Positions 3,662 to 7,144 of a stretch of 64,000 bases of DNA are shown piece after piece. The position numbers and the translations under genes were made by a program. The notes under the pieces were generated by a model, which was given only the letters and a program-made list of their open reading frames with translations, searched no databases and was not told the DNA's origin. Origin of the DNA: Fusibacillus kribbianus (GTDB taxonomy: Bacteria; Bacillota; Clostridia; Lachnospirales; Lachnospiraceae); assembly GCF_030053595.1 (NCBI RefSeq), contig NZ_JASGBQ010000004.1, forward strand, positions 62,001-126,000, written 5' to 3'. Each line of letters starts with the position of its first letter. Position 1 is the first letter of the stretch.

Positions 3662-4525
3662 TTACTGTCCCATAAAGATTTCCGCTATAGGTGAATCCTT
3701 GGGCAGGATCAGCGTATTGTTCCCGCCGGTCAGAGAAGCTTTGGCAGCTTCCAGGGAGCGAGTAAAGGAATAAAACTCTGCCTTGCCTGCATCGGAGTAT
3801 GCCTCCGCCAGAATCCGCATGTATTCGGCCTCGCCCTCAGCGATAATGCCGGCTGCCTGAGCCTTGGCATCGGAAAGCATGATCTCCACTTCCTTGTCTG
3901 TGGTATTTCGAATCTTCTGAGCCTCAGAATCGCCCTCCGCCTTATAGGTGGCGGCGATCTTTCCGCGCTCGGAGATCATTCGCTCATAAACAGCTTCCTT
4001 ATTGTCCTCGGGCAGATCCAGCTGTTTGATATCAACGGTTTTCAGCTCGATACCGTAGGATCCCATGGCAGCTCCCACACCTTCCATAATGGCAGCCTGA
4101 AGCTCACCGTCCCGGGCCGCAATCACATCATTCTGAGTCATATTGCTGATAATATTCTTAGTGGCGTTGTAAACTGCCGCATCGATTCTCTGCTCTGCAC
4201 TCGTCTGAGAAGAATTCAGGGTCTTTGCATACTTCAGAGGATCTGATACCCGCCACAGCACAAAGCTGTCGGCAATCATGGTCTTTTTGTCCATGGTGAT
4301 CACATCCGATTCCGGAAGGTCATAGAGGAGTATCTGTCCCGGAAGCGCATCCACAGTCTCCATGAAAGGGATCTTGAAGGTGATGCCCGGATTGTCAATG
4401 ATTCTGTCCACCTTACCGAACCGGCGGATCAGGCTGTATTCATTTTCCTTAGTAATGACGACTGAGGAGGCAAGAAGCACCACCGCCAGAATCGACAGAA
4501 AAATACCGATAATTTTTTTCTTCAT
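3662..4525 (-). CDS. hflC: SPFH/Band 7 membrane protein, HflC type
   Basis: 287 residues. N-terminal signal-anchor (MKKKIIGIFLSILAVVLLASSVVI), then an SPFH domain starting at YSLIRRFGKVDRIIDNPG, and a helical C-terminal region rich in EAEYMRILAEA-type segments typical of HflC. In the HflKC complex it forms a membrane cage around the FtsH protease; that partnership is known for proteobacteria and assumed here. Start: ATG at 4525 preceded by GGGGAGG. A longer upstream frame would run into the hflK end and is rejected. Lies 16 bp after hflK and ends at a bidirectional terminator. No ftsH is in the window. Confidence 0.88.
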   Translation of the reverse strand: MKKKIIGIFLSILAVVLLASSVVITKENEYSLIRRFGKVDRIIDNPGITFKIPFMETVDALPGQILLYDLPESDVITMDKKTMIADSFVLWRVSDPLKYAKTLNSSQTSAEQRIDAAVYNATKNIISNMTQNDVIAARDGELQAAIMEGVGAAMGSYGIELKTVDIKQLDLPEDNKEAVYERMISERGKIAATYKAEGDSEAQKIRNTTDKEVEIMLSDAKAQAAGIIAEGEAEYMRILAEAYSDAGKAEFYSFTRSLEAAKASLTGGNNTLILPKDSPIAEIFMGQ

Positions 4526-4541: not shown

Positions 4542-5687
4542 CTAGTTTCCGCTGGTTCCGGCTGAAGCTCCGGATGTACTGTTTCCGGCTGCGCCGCTTC
4601 CCGATGCACTGTCCGTTCCCGAACCGTTTCCTGCTGCAGAAGCTGCCGCACCTGCCGCCTGATCGGAAAGCTGATCCATCAGCATGGTGCTGGTGCTGTC
4701 TGTACCGTCAATGATGACCTTCAGATTGGGAAGCACCGCCTCCATGGTTTCATAAAACATTCTCTGCTTTGTCACCAGAGGGTTCTTTATGTATTCCTCA
4801 TACTGGGCATTGAACATGGCCACATCGGCATACGCTTCGTTGATACGCTTTGTCTTTGAGGACTCTGCCTCCTGAAGGATCTGATCCACATCAGCCTCCG
4901 CCTTGGGAAGCTTCTCATTTCTGTATTTGTTGGCGTTGTTGATTGCTGTTTCCTTCCCCTGCTTGGCCGTCTCCACATCCTTAAAGGCTTCCAGCACCTC
5001 CATGGTGGGCGGCGTGGAATCCTGAATAGTGATATTCACAAGCTGAAGTCCGATGTCCTGTTCCTCCAGCTGGGAAAGCAGCATTTCTCTGATATTGGAC
5101 TGGATCTCATTTTTTCCGGTGGTGAGAACGCTGTCCACATCGTAATTGCTGACCACCGTACGGATACAGCTCTGCGCCAGATTCCGTAAAATGTCCTCCG
5201 GCTGCCTGGACGCAAACACAGCCTTCACCGGATCGGATACCCGGTATTCCACGTAGAAATCAATGCCTACAAAATTAAAATCCGAAGTGATCATAATCGC
5301 TTCATTGGGTACCGTCTGCCCTTCACTGTCATAACCTACCTTGAAGCCCTGAATGGTGGTATCCACCTTCTTTACCTGCTGCACAAAAGGAATCTTGAAA
5401 TGAAGTCCCGATTCCTTGACTGCCTTCGGCACGCCGAAGGTAGTGACAACGGCTTGCTCCTGCTCGCCGATGGTATAGGTGGCATTCATGGCGAGAATGG
5501 CGATCACTGCAACGAGAATCACAATCCCGACCACTCTGCCGCCGTTTTTCAAAACCTTTTTCCCTCCGCCGGATTTTTTCGCTTTCTTCGGCTTGTCCTT
5601 CTCCGGTTCCGGATCCGGATCCACTACTTTCGGACCGCTTCCTCCGCCGGCAAGATTTTTCATGATGTCATAAAAAATATTCCCCAT
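4542..5687 (-). CDS. hflK: SPFH/Band 7 membrane protein, HflK type, riboswitch-controlled
   Basis: 381 residues. A charged N-terminus (PDPEPEKDKPKKAKK) precedes one transmembrane segment (about 50-70, VVGIVILVAVIAILAM). An SPFH domain follows, opening with YTIGEQEQAVVTTFG, then a coiled C-terminal half with a YRNEKLPKAEADVDQI segment. The last 45 residues are a Gly/Ala/Ser low-complexity tail, also common in HflK. First gene of the hflK-hflC pair. Upstream, in transcription order, are a consensus promoter, a yybP-ykoY riboswitch and a terminator, so the pair is probably induced by manganese. That control is unusual for this family. Confidence 0.88.
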   Translation of the reverse strand: MGNIFYDIMKNLAGGGSGPKVVDPDPEPEKDKPKKAKKSGGGKKVLKNGGRVVGIVILVAVIAILAMNATYTIGEQEQAVVTTFGVPKAVKESGLHFKIPFVQQVKKVDTTIQGFKVGYDSEGQTVPNEAIMITSDFNFVGIDFYVEYRVSDPVKAVFASRQPEDILRNLAQSCIRTVVSNYDVDSVLTTGKNEIQSNIREMLLSQLEEQDIGLQLVNITIQDSTPPTMEVLEAFKDVETAKQGKETAINNANKYRNEKLPKAEADVDQILQEAESSKTKRINEAYADVAMFNAQYEEYIKNPLVTKQRMFYETMEAVLPNLKVIIDGTDSTSTMLMDQLSDQAAGAAASAAGNGSGTDSASGSGAAGNSTSGASAGTSGN

Positions 5688-5706
5688 TTTCTTCCTCCTT
5701 TGATTT

Positions 5707-5751
5707 TAAAAAAAGACTTTTACCGCAGCCTTCCGGCTGCAATAAAAGTCT
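5707..5751 (-). terminator. Riboswitch expression platform: intrinsic terminator before hflK
   Basis: On the minus strand a long stem (AGACTTTTATTGCAGCC pairing with GGCTGCGGTAAAAGTCT, small GGAA-type loop) is followed by seven T. Its 5' arm (5748-5741) is the same segment that forms the 3' strand of aptamer helix P1. Aptamer and terminator folds therefore exclude each other, and ligand binding would prevent termination. Confidence 0.85.
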
Positions 5752-5833
5752 TGCTATAAAACTATCTGCGGGTTACAAACCGTCATGACGCAGGATAGAA
5801 CATCATCCGATGTTAGCTACTCCCTTCTATTTA
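5741..5833 (-). ncRNA. yybP-ykoY manganese riboswitch aptamer
   Basis: Reading the minus strand from 5833: P1 5' strand AATAGAAG, conserved loop GGGAGTAGC, P2 hairpin AACATC/GATGTT, P3 stem CTATCCTGCG/CCGCAGATAG containing CGTCATGACGG, then the conserved TAGCAAGACTTT whose CTTTTATT closes P1. The GGGAGTAG...AGCAAGAC pair of loops is the diagnostic signature of the yybP-ykoY class, which senses Mn2+ as a transcriptional ON switch. It sits directly between a promoter and hflK. The class call rests on motif recognition by eye, not a covariance-model search. Confidence 0.83.
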
Positions 5834-5841
5834 TGGAACTC

Positions 5842-5870
5842 AGTATACTCCACCGGAGCGATATTGTCAA
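5842..5870 (-). promoter_or_regulatory. Sigma-A promoter of the riboswitch-hflKC transcript
   Basis: TTGACA (5870-5865), 17-bp spacer, TATACT (5847-5842) on the minus strand. The expected start lies a few bases before the aptamer, so the leader RNA begins with P1. The -35 box abuts the terminator of ilvA. Confidence 0.9.
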
Positions 5871-5871
5871 G

Positions 5872-5905
5872 AAAAAAACAATTTCATTTTTATGAATAAA
5901 TTGTT
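5872..5905 (-). terminator. Intrinsic terminator of ilvA
   Basis: Minus strand AACAATTT/AAATTGTT stem, extended inside by CAT/ATG, followed by a T run. It isolates the riboswitch-hflKC unit from upstream transcription. Confidence 0.75.
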
Positions 5906-5917
5906 ACACTGCAATCA

Positions 5918-7144
5918 TCAGGCTCCCTGGTAAATTCCCTTCTGCTTGACGACCTTGGGACGATAGCCGCTCTCCTCCAGCGCCTTTACGATCTCATTTT
6001 TGTGATCGGTTCCAAAGGCCTCCATGGTGATCCGAAGCTCCACTGCATCGTTTCTGTTGATGCTGACAAACTGGTTATGCTCCAGCTTGATGACATTGCC
6101 CTGCATCTTTGCAATGATCGTGGAAACATTGACCAGCGCACCCGGCTTGTCCGGAAGGAGCACCGATACGGTAAAGATCCTGTCTCTCTGGATGAGGCCG
6201 TGCTGTACTACGGAGGACATGGTGATCACGTCCATGTTTCCGCCGCTGATGATGGACACCACCTTTTTATTTTTCACATCGAGATGCTTGAGGGCAGCCA
6301 CAGTCAAAAGGCCGGAATTTTCCGCCACCATCTTGTGATTCTCCACCAGATCCAGAAAAGCCACGATCAGCTCCGTATCCTCCACGGTGATGATCTCATC
6401 CACATTTGCCTGAATATAGGGAAGAAGAAGATCTCCCGGTGTCTTGACCGCCGTACCGTCTGCAATGGTATTGACCCTGGGAAGAGTCACCACATGGCCC
6501 TGACGGACGGACTCCTGCATGCAGTTGGCCCCCGCCGGCTCCACACCGATGACCTTGATGTTGGGATTCAGAAGCTTTGCCAGAGTGGAAACACCGGTAC
6601 AAAGCCCGCCTCCGCCGATGGGACAGAGAATATAGTCTACAGTGGGAAGCTCCTTGACGATCTCCATGGCGATGGTTCCCTGTCCGGTAGCCACCGTCAG
6701 ATCATTGAAGGGATGAATAAAGGTATATCCGTGCTCCTCGGCCAGCTTGTAAGCATATTCACAGGCTTCGTCATAGACATCACCGTAAAGCACCACCTCA
6801 GCACCGTAGCTCTTTGTCCTGTTTACCTTCATGAGCGGCGTTGTCGTAGGCATGACCACAACTGCCTTTGCGCCGAATTTCTTCGCTGCATAGGCAACTC
6901 CCTGGGCATGGTTTCCGGCAGAAGCAGTGATCAGTCCTTTTGCCCGCTCCTCCTCGGAAAGGGTGCTGATCTTGTAATATGCGCCGCGAACCTTGTAGGC
7001 TCCTGTATACTGCATGTTTTCCGGCTTCAGATAAACCTTATTGCCGGTCTGGTCGCTGAAATATTCACTGTATACCAGCTTTGTCTCCGATGTCACTTTG
7101 CTGACGGCCTCAGCCGCCTCCTCAAATTTCTCCAGTGTCAGCAT
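5918..7144 (-). CDS. ilvA: Threonine ammonia-lyase with C-terminal ACT domain
   Basis: PLP enzyme that deaminates L-threonine to 2-oxobutanoate and ammonia, feeding isoleucine synthesis or threonine catabolism. 408 residues. The PLP lysine is K51 in YTGAYKVRGA, the phosphate-binding loop is GGGGLCTG near 178, and SGGN comes near 310. A single ACT domain starts at about 330 (FTVSVLLPDKPGALVNVSTI), which suggests amino-acid regulation. This shorter one-ACT form is the usual Clostridia type and is also called TdcB. The gene follows ftsY after 29 bp and has its own terminator. Confidence 0.93.
   Translation of the reverse strand: MLTLEKFEEAAEAVSKVTSETKLVYSEYFSDQTGNKVYLKPENMQYTGAYKVRGAYYKISTLSEEERAKGLITASAGNHAQGVAYAAKKFGAKAVVVMPTTTPLMKVNRTKSYGAEVVLYGDVYDEACEYAYKLAEEHGYTFIHPFNDLTVATGQGTIAMEIVKELPTVDYILCPIGGGGLCTGVSTLAKLLNPNIKVIGVEPAGANCMQESVRQGHVVTLPRVNTIADGTAVKTPGDLLLPYIQANVDEIITVEDTELIVAFLDLVENHKMVAENSGLLTVAALKHLDVKNKKVVSIISGGNMDVITMSSVVQHGLIQRDRIFTVSVLLPDKPGALVNVSTIIAKMQGNVIKLEHNQFVSINRNDAVELRITMEAFGTDHKNEIVKALEESGYRPKVVKQKGIYQGA

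Follow-up and report, generated by a model that had tools for sequence, protein, structure and literature searches.

Described manganese riboswitches and the FtsH network

Among described RNAs, the closest to the leader reported here are the Mn2+-sensing riboswitches of the yybP-ykoY class (Rfam RF00080), as exemplified by L. lactis yoaB and X. oryzae yebN. The solved structures have a four-way junction including a P4 helix as a class feature. Their L3 sequence is UCA41AUUC for L. lactis and ACA48UACU for X. oryzae (PMC6754395), the MB site for Mn2+ being built from residues G9, U39, C40, A41, U44 and C45 (PMC9190785). Regarding the switch itself, the 3' segment of P1.1 in L. lactis joins the terminator when Mn2+ is lacking, while docking around Mn2+ holds P1.1 (PMC11087558). 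In B. subtilis, MeeY (YkoY) is under the control of a Mn2+ riboswitch, FtsH and flotillins copurify with MeeY and its paralogue MeeF, and FtsH becomes essential once both of these TerC proteins are gone (PMC10550928). HflKC is a partner of FtsH (PMC13220708). As for other ion riboswitches, Na+-I (DUF1646 motif) also occurs before oxaloacetate decarboxylase genes but differs in being described as two substructures, P1 and P2 (PMC9337991).

The leader considered here precedes hflK-hflC in Fusibacillus kribbianus. It is most likely a Mn2+-sensing, transcription-terminating ON riboswitch controlling both genes, and a compact relative of the yybP-ykoY class built on a three-way junction.

Architecture of the leader

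The window, i.e. the whole stretch of DNA analysed, comprises 64,000 nt (assembly GCF_030053595.1, contig NZ_JASGBQ010000004.1, positions 62,001-126,000 of the forward strand). On its minus strand, between a gene which we take to be ilvA and hflK, come in order a promoter, an aptamer-like RNA, a terminator and a Shine-Dalgarno sequence, with hflC following hflK. The sigma-70-type promoter (5842..5870), read from the sequence and by script, consists of TTGACA (5870-5865) and TATACT (5847-5842) separated by a 17-nt spacer. The aptamer (5742..5830) opens with the 5' strand of the switch helix P1.1, AUAGAAG (5824..5830), which pairs with CUUUUAU (5748-5742), as supported by the pair columns in relatives. 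Next come the 5' strand of L1, GGAGUAGC (5816..5823), whose last two letters are paired in P1.2, then the P2 hairpin (5799..5814; stem AACAUC and GAUGUU, loop GGAU), found both in the fold and in the pair columns of relatives, and the P3 stem-loop (5762..5798; CUAUCCUGCG ... CGCAGAUAG), seen in these pair columns and bearing the L3 bulge UCAUGAC (5782..5788). The 3' strand of P1.2 and L1, UAGCAAGA, occupies 5749..5756. Since only 5 nt lie between the end of P3 (5762) and the start of UAGCAAGA (5756), with no P4 filling that room, the junction is three-way, and the four-way arrangement of the solved structures is absent.

The 3' strand of P1.1 (5742..5748) is common to the aptamer and to the 5' arm of an intrinsic terminator (5708..5751) with a 17-bp stem and a U-run, which folds alone at -26.7 kcal/mol and whose layout recurs in most relatives tested. 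Downstream lie the Shine-Dalgarno sequence AGGAGG (5694..5699), hflK (4542..5687; 381 aa, ATG at 5687) and hflC (3662..4525; start set at the methionine of MKKK), both encoding SPFH/Band_7 proteins according to Pfam. The preliminary description, drawn from the DNA letters, had located the promoter, the loops, the P1-P3 helices, the terminator and the SPFH pair, had proposed that the 5' arm of the terminator is the 3' strand of P1, and had named hflK-hflC as target; each of these elements was recovered where it had been placed, on the minus strand, the arm of 5751-5708 does contain the P1.1 strand CUUUUAU, and both target genes are SPFH genes. The leader of 135 nt folds 5.2 SD under its dinucleotide shuffles, none of 200 shuffles being as low, a z-score to which the terminator contributes much.

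Proposed switch mechanism

The inclusion of the 3' strand of P1.1 in the expression platform is a feature of the yybP-ykoY class that is retained here, and it is general among relatives: a terminator overlapping P1.1 in this way turned up in 124 of the 137 leaders located by model and in 119 of the 133 located by pattern, vs. 73 of 810 shuffles. In the ligand-free fold, the terminator form reaches -46.0 kcal/mol vs. -34.5 kcal/mol with P1.1 forced, tertiary contacts and co-transcriptional folding being left out of these values, and such a preference for the terminator without ligand fits what an ON switch needs. The terminator-type ON logic advanced in the preliminary description is supported by computation, the ON polarity itself being inferred. 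At low Mn2+, the 3' strand of P1.1 would enter the terminator stem and RNA polymerase would stop before hflK; at high Mn2+, L1 and L3 would dock around the ion, P1.1 would be held, the terminator blocked and hflK-hflC transcribed.

A compact clade overlooked by RF00080

The Rfam model of the class, RF00080, with a gathering cut-off of 45 bits, gives no match in the window at this cut-off and none in the whole genome at E <= 0.001, and it is absent from the 11 Rfam matches obtained at E <= 10 in the 271-nt leader region. In the 397 genomes examined from the same family, the Lachnospiraceae, RF00080 matches 9 genomes at E <= 0.001 and none over the cut-off. The preliminary description had assigned the leader to this class and had itself named a sub-threshold RF00080 score as evidence to the contrary; the score is indeed below threshold, so that membership of RF00080 falls, while kinship with the class stands on covariance, on the L1 and L3 letters and on a relative before mntP, as detailed below. 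The failure of RF00080 was not taken as absence of the class because the same search matches the positive controls E. coli and B. subtilis as well as, over the cut-off, two proteobacterial records among 44 genomes searched. Because the clade is linked both to RNAs controlling mntP and to four-way RNAs before common targets, we attribute the lack of matches to RF00080 being blind to the compact P4-less form rather than to absence of the class. Compared with 4227 Rfam models, which may or may not include Na+-I (DUF1646), the leader reaches the gathering score of no family; freshwater-2, mir-8196 and SSRC10 appeared as weak matches under their cut-offs and were rejected as identities.

Relatives were gathered with a two-gap pattern of the leader's loop letters, giving the alignments A2 (68 sequences) and A3 (the 56 of these from named genomes only). 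Two covariance models were used: R2, which includes the window itself, and R3, which was built from A3 without the window and without the loci fetched from its genus, though a congener under another name may remain. R2 gives a single match in the 64 kb (81.5 bits), and R3 matches 5834-5736 at 78.4 bits (E 5e-17 in 118,507 bases). Across the family, R2 matches at E <= 0.001 in 210 of the 397 genomes sampled, which gives the extent of the clade overlooked by RF00080, while the loop-letter pattern is found in 19 of the 397; a reversed control pattern has no match in the genomes listed. Among named genomes, the pattern occurs in at least 119 stretches, of which at least 111 belong to Clostridia, at least 1 to other Bacillota and at least 7 to Pseudomonadota, and aptamers identical to those of family members occur in named records of Hungatella and Blautia, which indicates that the family is the Lachnospiraceae.

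P1.1, P1.2, P2 and P3 are common to the aligned members. RNAalifold mis-set P1 and missed the base of P3, so the structure was set instead from column-pair frequencies, and hence on the same alignments whose pairs were then counted. On this basis 85.7% of cells are paired in A2, with a covariation of 0.467 vs. 0.181 in shuffled and at most 0.143 in slid alignments; in A3, the corresponding values are 86.6%, 0.460, 0.179 and at most 0.131. As shuffling ignores relatedness, a comparison with the slid alignments is fairer. Besides, since the pattern used for gathering makes its own letters invariant by construction, conservation was also read on 138 model-found loci (128 by R2, 10 by RF00080), only 8 of which match the pattern; the R2-found loci come from the places listed by the 397-genome scan, its 30 loci and 100 further places. 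The scans of the 397 genomes with R2 and with RF00080 were both run with stricter filters. In these 138 relatives, GGGAG is kept in 137, [AG]AGAC in 135, GUCA in 128, GGAGUAG in 96 and GAGUAGC in 76, and the losses of L1 letters are mostly paired changes in P1.2. Two pairs of P1.2 held constant by the pattern do covary there, as GC/GC (74), AC/GU (38) and GU/AC (13). The leader belongs to a group of compact, covarying, three-way-junction relatives of the yybP-ykoY Mn2+ riboswitch.

Kinship with the Mn2+-sensing RNAs

In L1, GGAGUAGC faces GCAAGA and is closed by P1.1. These are the L1 letters of the class, and the same letters are seen in the RF00080-positive proteobacterial locus L144. The L3 bulge UCAUGAC equals in length the seven-nucleotide Mn2+ site of L. 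lactis, UCAAUUC, and is identical to it at U39, C40, A41 and C45 while differing at 42-44, a comparison of letters only. The leader is thus like the yybP-ykoY riboswitches of L. lactis and X. oryzae in its L1, in a seven-nucleotide L3 containing the Mn2+-contacting A, in the overlap of P1.1 with the terminator and, at the level of the clade, in the export-type genes controlled; it differs from them by the missing P4, by L3 positions 42-44, by the lack of an RF00080 match and by its hflK-hflC target.

Some bridging RNAs are available. R3 scores seven proteobacterial loci at 20.0-30.8 bits, among which L144 and L145 pass the RF00080 cut-off. A fourth R2 match in the F. kribbianus genome (L179, on contig C22; 21.5 bits, E 0.54) lies inside a reading frame that we take to be topoisomerase-like and was treated as chance. 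As this chance match equals some true proteobacterial relatives, scores near 20 bits prove nothing, and the connection which R3 draws to the Mn2+ riboswitches of proteobacteria is weak when taken alone. In Blautia caecimuris, L146 scores 28.3 bits with R3 and 43.1 bits with RF00080, just under the cut-off; it folds as a four-way junction and precedes an OAD-beta gene.

The F. kribbianus genome itself holds three convincing R2 sites. Besides the window, these are a close relative before one of the two OAD-beta genes (L147, G000:C5:2831-2929; 88.6 bits) and a more distant relative before mntP on the minus strand (L178, G000:C1:184271-184381; R2 41.4 bits, R3 38.1 bits). The latter, which RF00080 does not flag, carries the L3 ACAUACU of X. 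oryzae together with a separate terminator; the gene that follows at a distance of 71 nt is called Mntp by Pfam. The preliminary description had opposed hflK-hflC control to that of a metal exporter; this proved too narrow, because in the same genome relatives of the switch precede both mntP and OAD-beta, and transporters dominate the clade. The association with Mn2+ efflux genes is found at the level of the clade, through this mntP, and not at the window's own target.

Target genes and the nature of the ligand

The pattern set (142) and the model set (138) have members in common and include near-copies; merging reduces their 280 entries to 265 distinct 70-nt cores, or 258 after removal of 7 proteobacterial ones, among the matches listed. 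Genes were labelled by the best same-strand tblastn match (E <= 1e-4) at a distance of up to 1.6 kb, using one Pfam-checked reference protein per family. By these labels, the 258 distinct cores listed precede genes for P-type ATPases (77), OAD-beta (72), CaCA exchangers (37), HflK (21), YccF (8), flotillin (7), CitMHS/ArsB-type transporters (7), CNNM (4), MntP (4) and NptA (1), while 20 have none of the reference families downstream. Most of these neighbours are cation transporters.

This range of genes bears on the ligand. The L. lactis-type L3 RNAs of the clade might form a sister class sensing another cation, be it Na+, Ca2+ or other, Mn2+ being sensed by the X. oryzae type only. Entries were sorted by a rule testing the L3 bulge and its flanking stems, with 83 of the 280 fitting neither form, and the two forms do divide mntP from HflK: all four mntP-linked aptamers are of the X. 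oryzae type, vs. 0 of 6 and 0 of 17 HflK-linked entries, 20 of these 23 being of the L. lactis type and 3 fitting neither. Since the form of L3 is linked to the gene, the RNAs before HflK genes could respond to a different ligand. The family names of many targets, moreover, suggest a link to Na+ or Ca2+ (OAD_beta, Na_Ca_ex, Na_Pi_cotrans, Na_Ala_symp), and the position of Na+-I riboswitches before oxaloacetate decarboxylase genes (PMC9337991) points the same way. However, X. oryzae-type RNAs also stand before OAD-beta (L146, L180, L181) and a P-type ATPase (L187), even if most copies before these two families are not of that type; a predicted Mn2+ riboswitch of C. difficile likewise precedes a P-type ATPase (PMC11477304), the L3 of the window agrees with the L. 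lactis Mn2+ site in length and at 4 of 7 positions, and the leader reaches no Rfam family at gathering score. With OAD-beta and P-type ATPase genes under both forms, one ligand shared by the two would explain the pattern of L3 and genes best. The idea of Na+, raised by OAD-beta, lost weight because mntP and X. oryzae-type OAD-beta leaders turned up, and a sister class for another cation is held to be unlikely, while being the most serious competitor of Mn2+ sensing. From these observations, we infer Mn2+ to be the ligand of the leader.

Recurrence before hflK

An hflK orthologue (E <= 1e-40) is present in 128 of the 397 family genomes, and the upstream DNA could be searched for 126 of the 129 matches, the other 3 lying at contig ends; three of the pieces are short, at contig starts (197, 258 and 729 bases), as are two of 30 loci (L291, L318). 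The preliminary description had suggested checking whether the aptamer is conserved upstream of hflK orthologues: it is, before 16 of the 126 examined, always on the hflK strand and in 14 genera, while R2 finds no match upstream of the other 110, the congener G008 among them. When the 30 best-scoring HflK proteins, of which 10 have the leader, are placed on a tree, 6 changes of the trait are required, at least 4 of them forced by well-supported branches; clustering of the labels is mild, 19 of 500 shuffles giving a number of changes as low as this. The leader before hflK has been gained or lost repeatedly. The culturable strains Blautia caecimuris DSM 29492 and Hungatella effluvii DSM 24995 (L043 and L047) also carry the arrangement. 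In the genus of the window, the leader is present in G002, and G008 has ilvA then hflK without it. The G008 locus (L290), set against 5687-5918 of the window, keeps the ilvA-hflK synteny with no R2 match between the genes and offers a natural pair for gain or loss.

Such patchiness, these label changes and the leaderless ilvA-hflK of G008 would also be expected if the aptamer works but reached hflK-hflC by spread of the module, as an accidental or nearly neutral target with no physiological link between Mn2+ and HflKC. Against this, the recurrence in 14 genera and the targeting of a second SPFH protein, flotillin, in 7 distinct cores argue for selection, and promoter, terminator and Shine-Dalgarno sequence are all intact in the window; a neutral target is accordingly considered improbable. 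As for a plain terminator or attenuator that resembles the class by chance and binds no ligand, the great stability of the hairpin alone and the failure of RF00080 would suit it, but the 78.4 bits given by a model made without the window, the covariation and the recurrence before hflK make it very hard to believe.

HflKC, FtsH and manganese

If the leader is indeed the Mn2+-sensing ON switch proposed above, its control of HflKC would tie the metal load of the cell to membrane protein quality control. The HflKC scaffold, as FtsH partner, would be raised together with Mn2+ export through mntP and perhaps OAD-beta. Three M41 (FtsH-type) matches were obtained in the F. kribbianus genome, and TerC gave none at E <= 0.001. 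The MeeY/FtsH network of B. subtilis is alike in tying a membrane protein under a Mn2+ riboswitch to FtsH, but the target of the riboswitch there is a TerC protein and here an SPFH pair. The leader suggests that excess Mn2+ may be coupled to membrane protein quality control in these cells. With Mn2+ as ligand, a modulator of FtsH proteolysis would be under direct metal control in at least 14 genera, which would provide a natural and testable handle on the interaction between Mn2+ status and FtsH; OAD-beta, CaCA exchangers, flotillin and YccF would then be candidate Mn2+-response genes.

A wider picture, put forward tentatively and with clearly less confidence than the switch itself, is that of a Lachnospiraceae Mn2+ regulon run by this Rfam-invisible three-way-junction clade, in which the SPFH cages (HflKC and flotillin) would be dedicated effectors of overload acting with FtsH, and OAD-beta proteins lacking a decarboxylase partner a new family of Mn2+ exporters.

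In the literature surveyed, no paper was found joining yybP-ykoY with HflC, or a manganese riboswitch with Lachnospiraceae, and yybP-ykoY with flotillin leads to the B. subtilis TerC paper alone; the papers retrieved for riboswitch with hflK name neither term in their titles or abstracts. The founding papers on Mn2+ riboswitches lie outside this survey and may already describe the three-way-junction form or such targets.

Regarding the other genes behind the aptamer, OAD-beta, the second commonest target and a candidate Mn2+-response transporter family, mostly comes without a close same-strand partner where the next gene is visible: at 56 scored loci, the next gene is on the opposite strand in 20, on the same strand but more than 150 nt away in 17 and close in 4, the sequence ending first in 15. 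Flotillin-type SPFH genes follow the aptamer at L061, L074, L155, L206, L267, L271 and L283, the label resting on Pfam for L061 and on similarity to L061 for the others. YccF inner-membrane proteins recur behind it as well (L023, L107, L132, L215, L221, L226), and Pfam identifies two targets seen once each, a potassium transporter of the K_trans family at L189 and, at L244, a sodium:alanine symporter (Na_Ala_symp).
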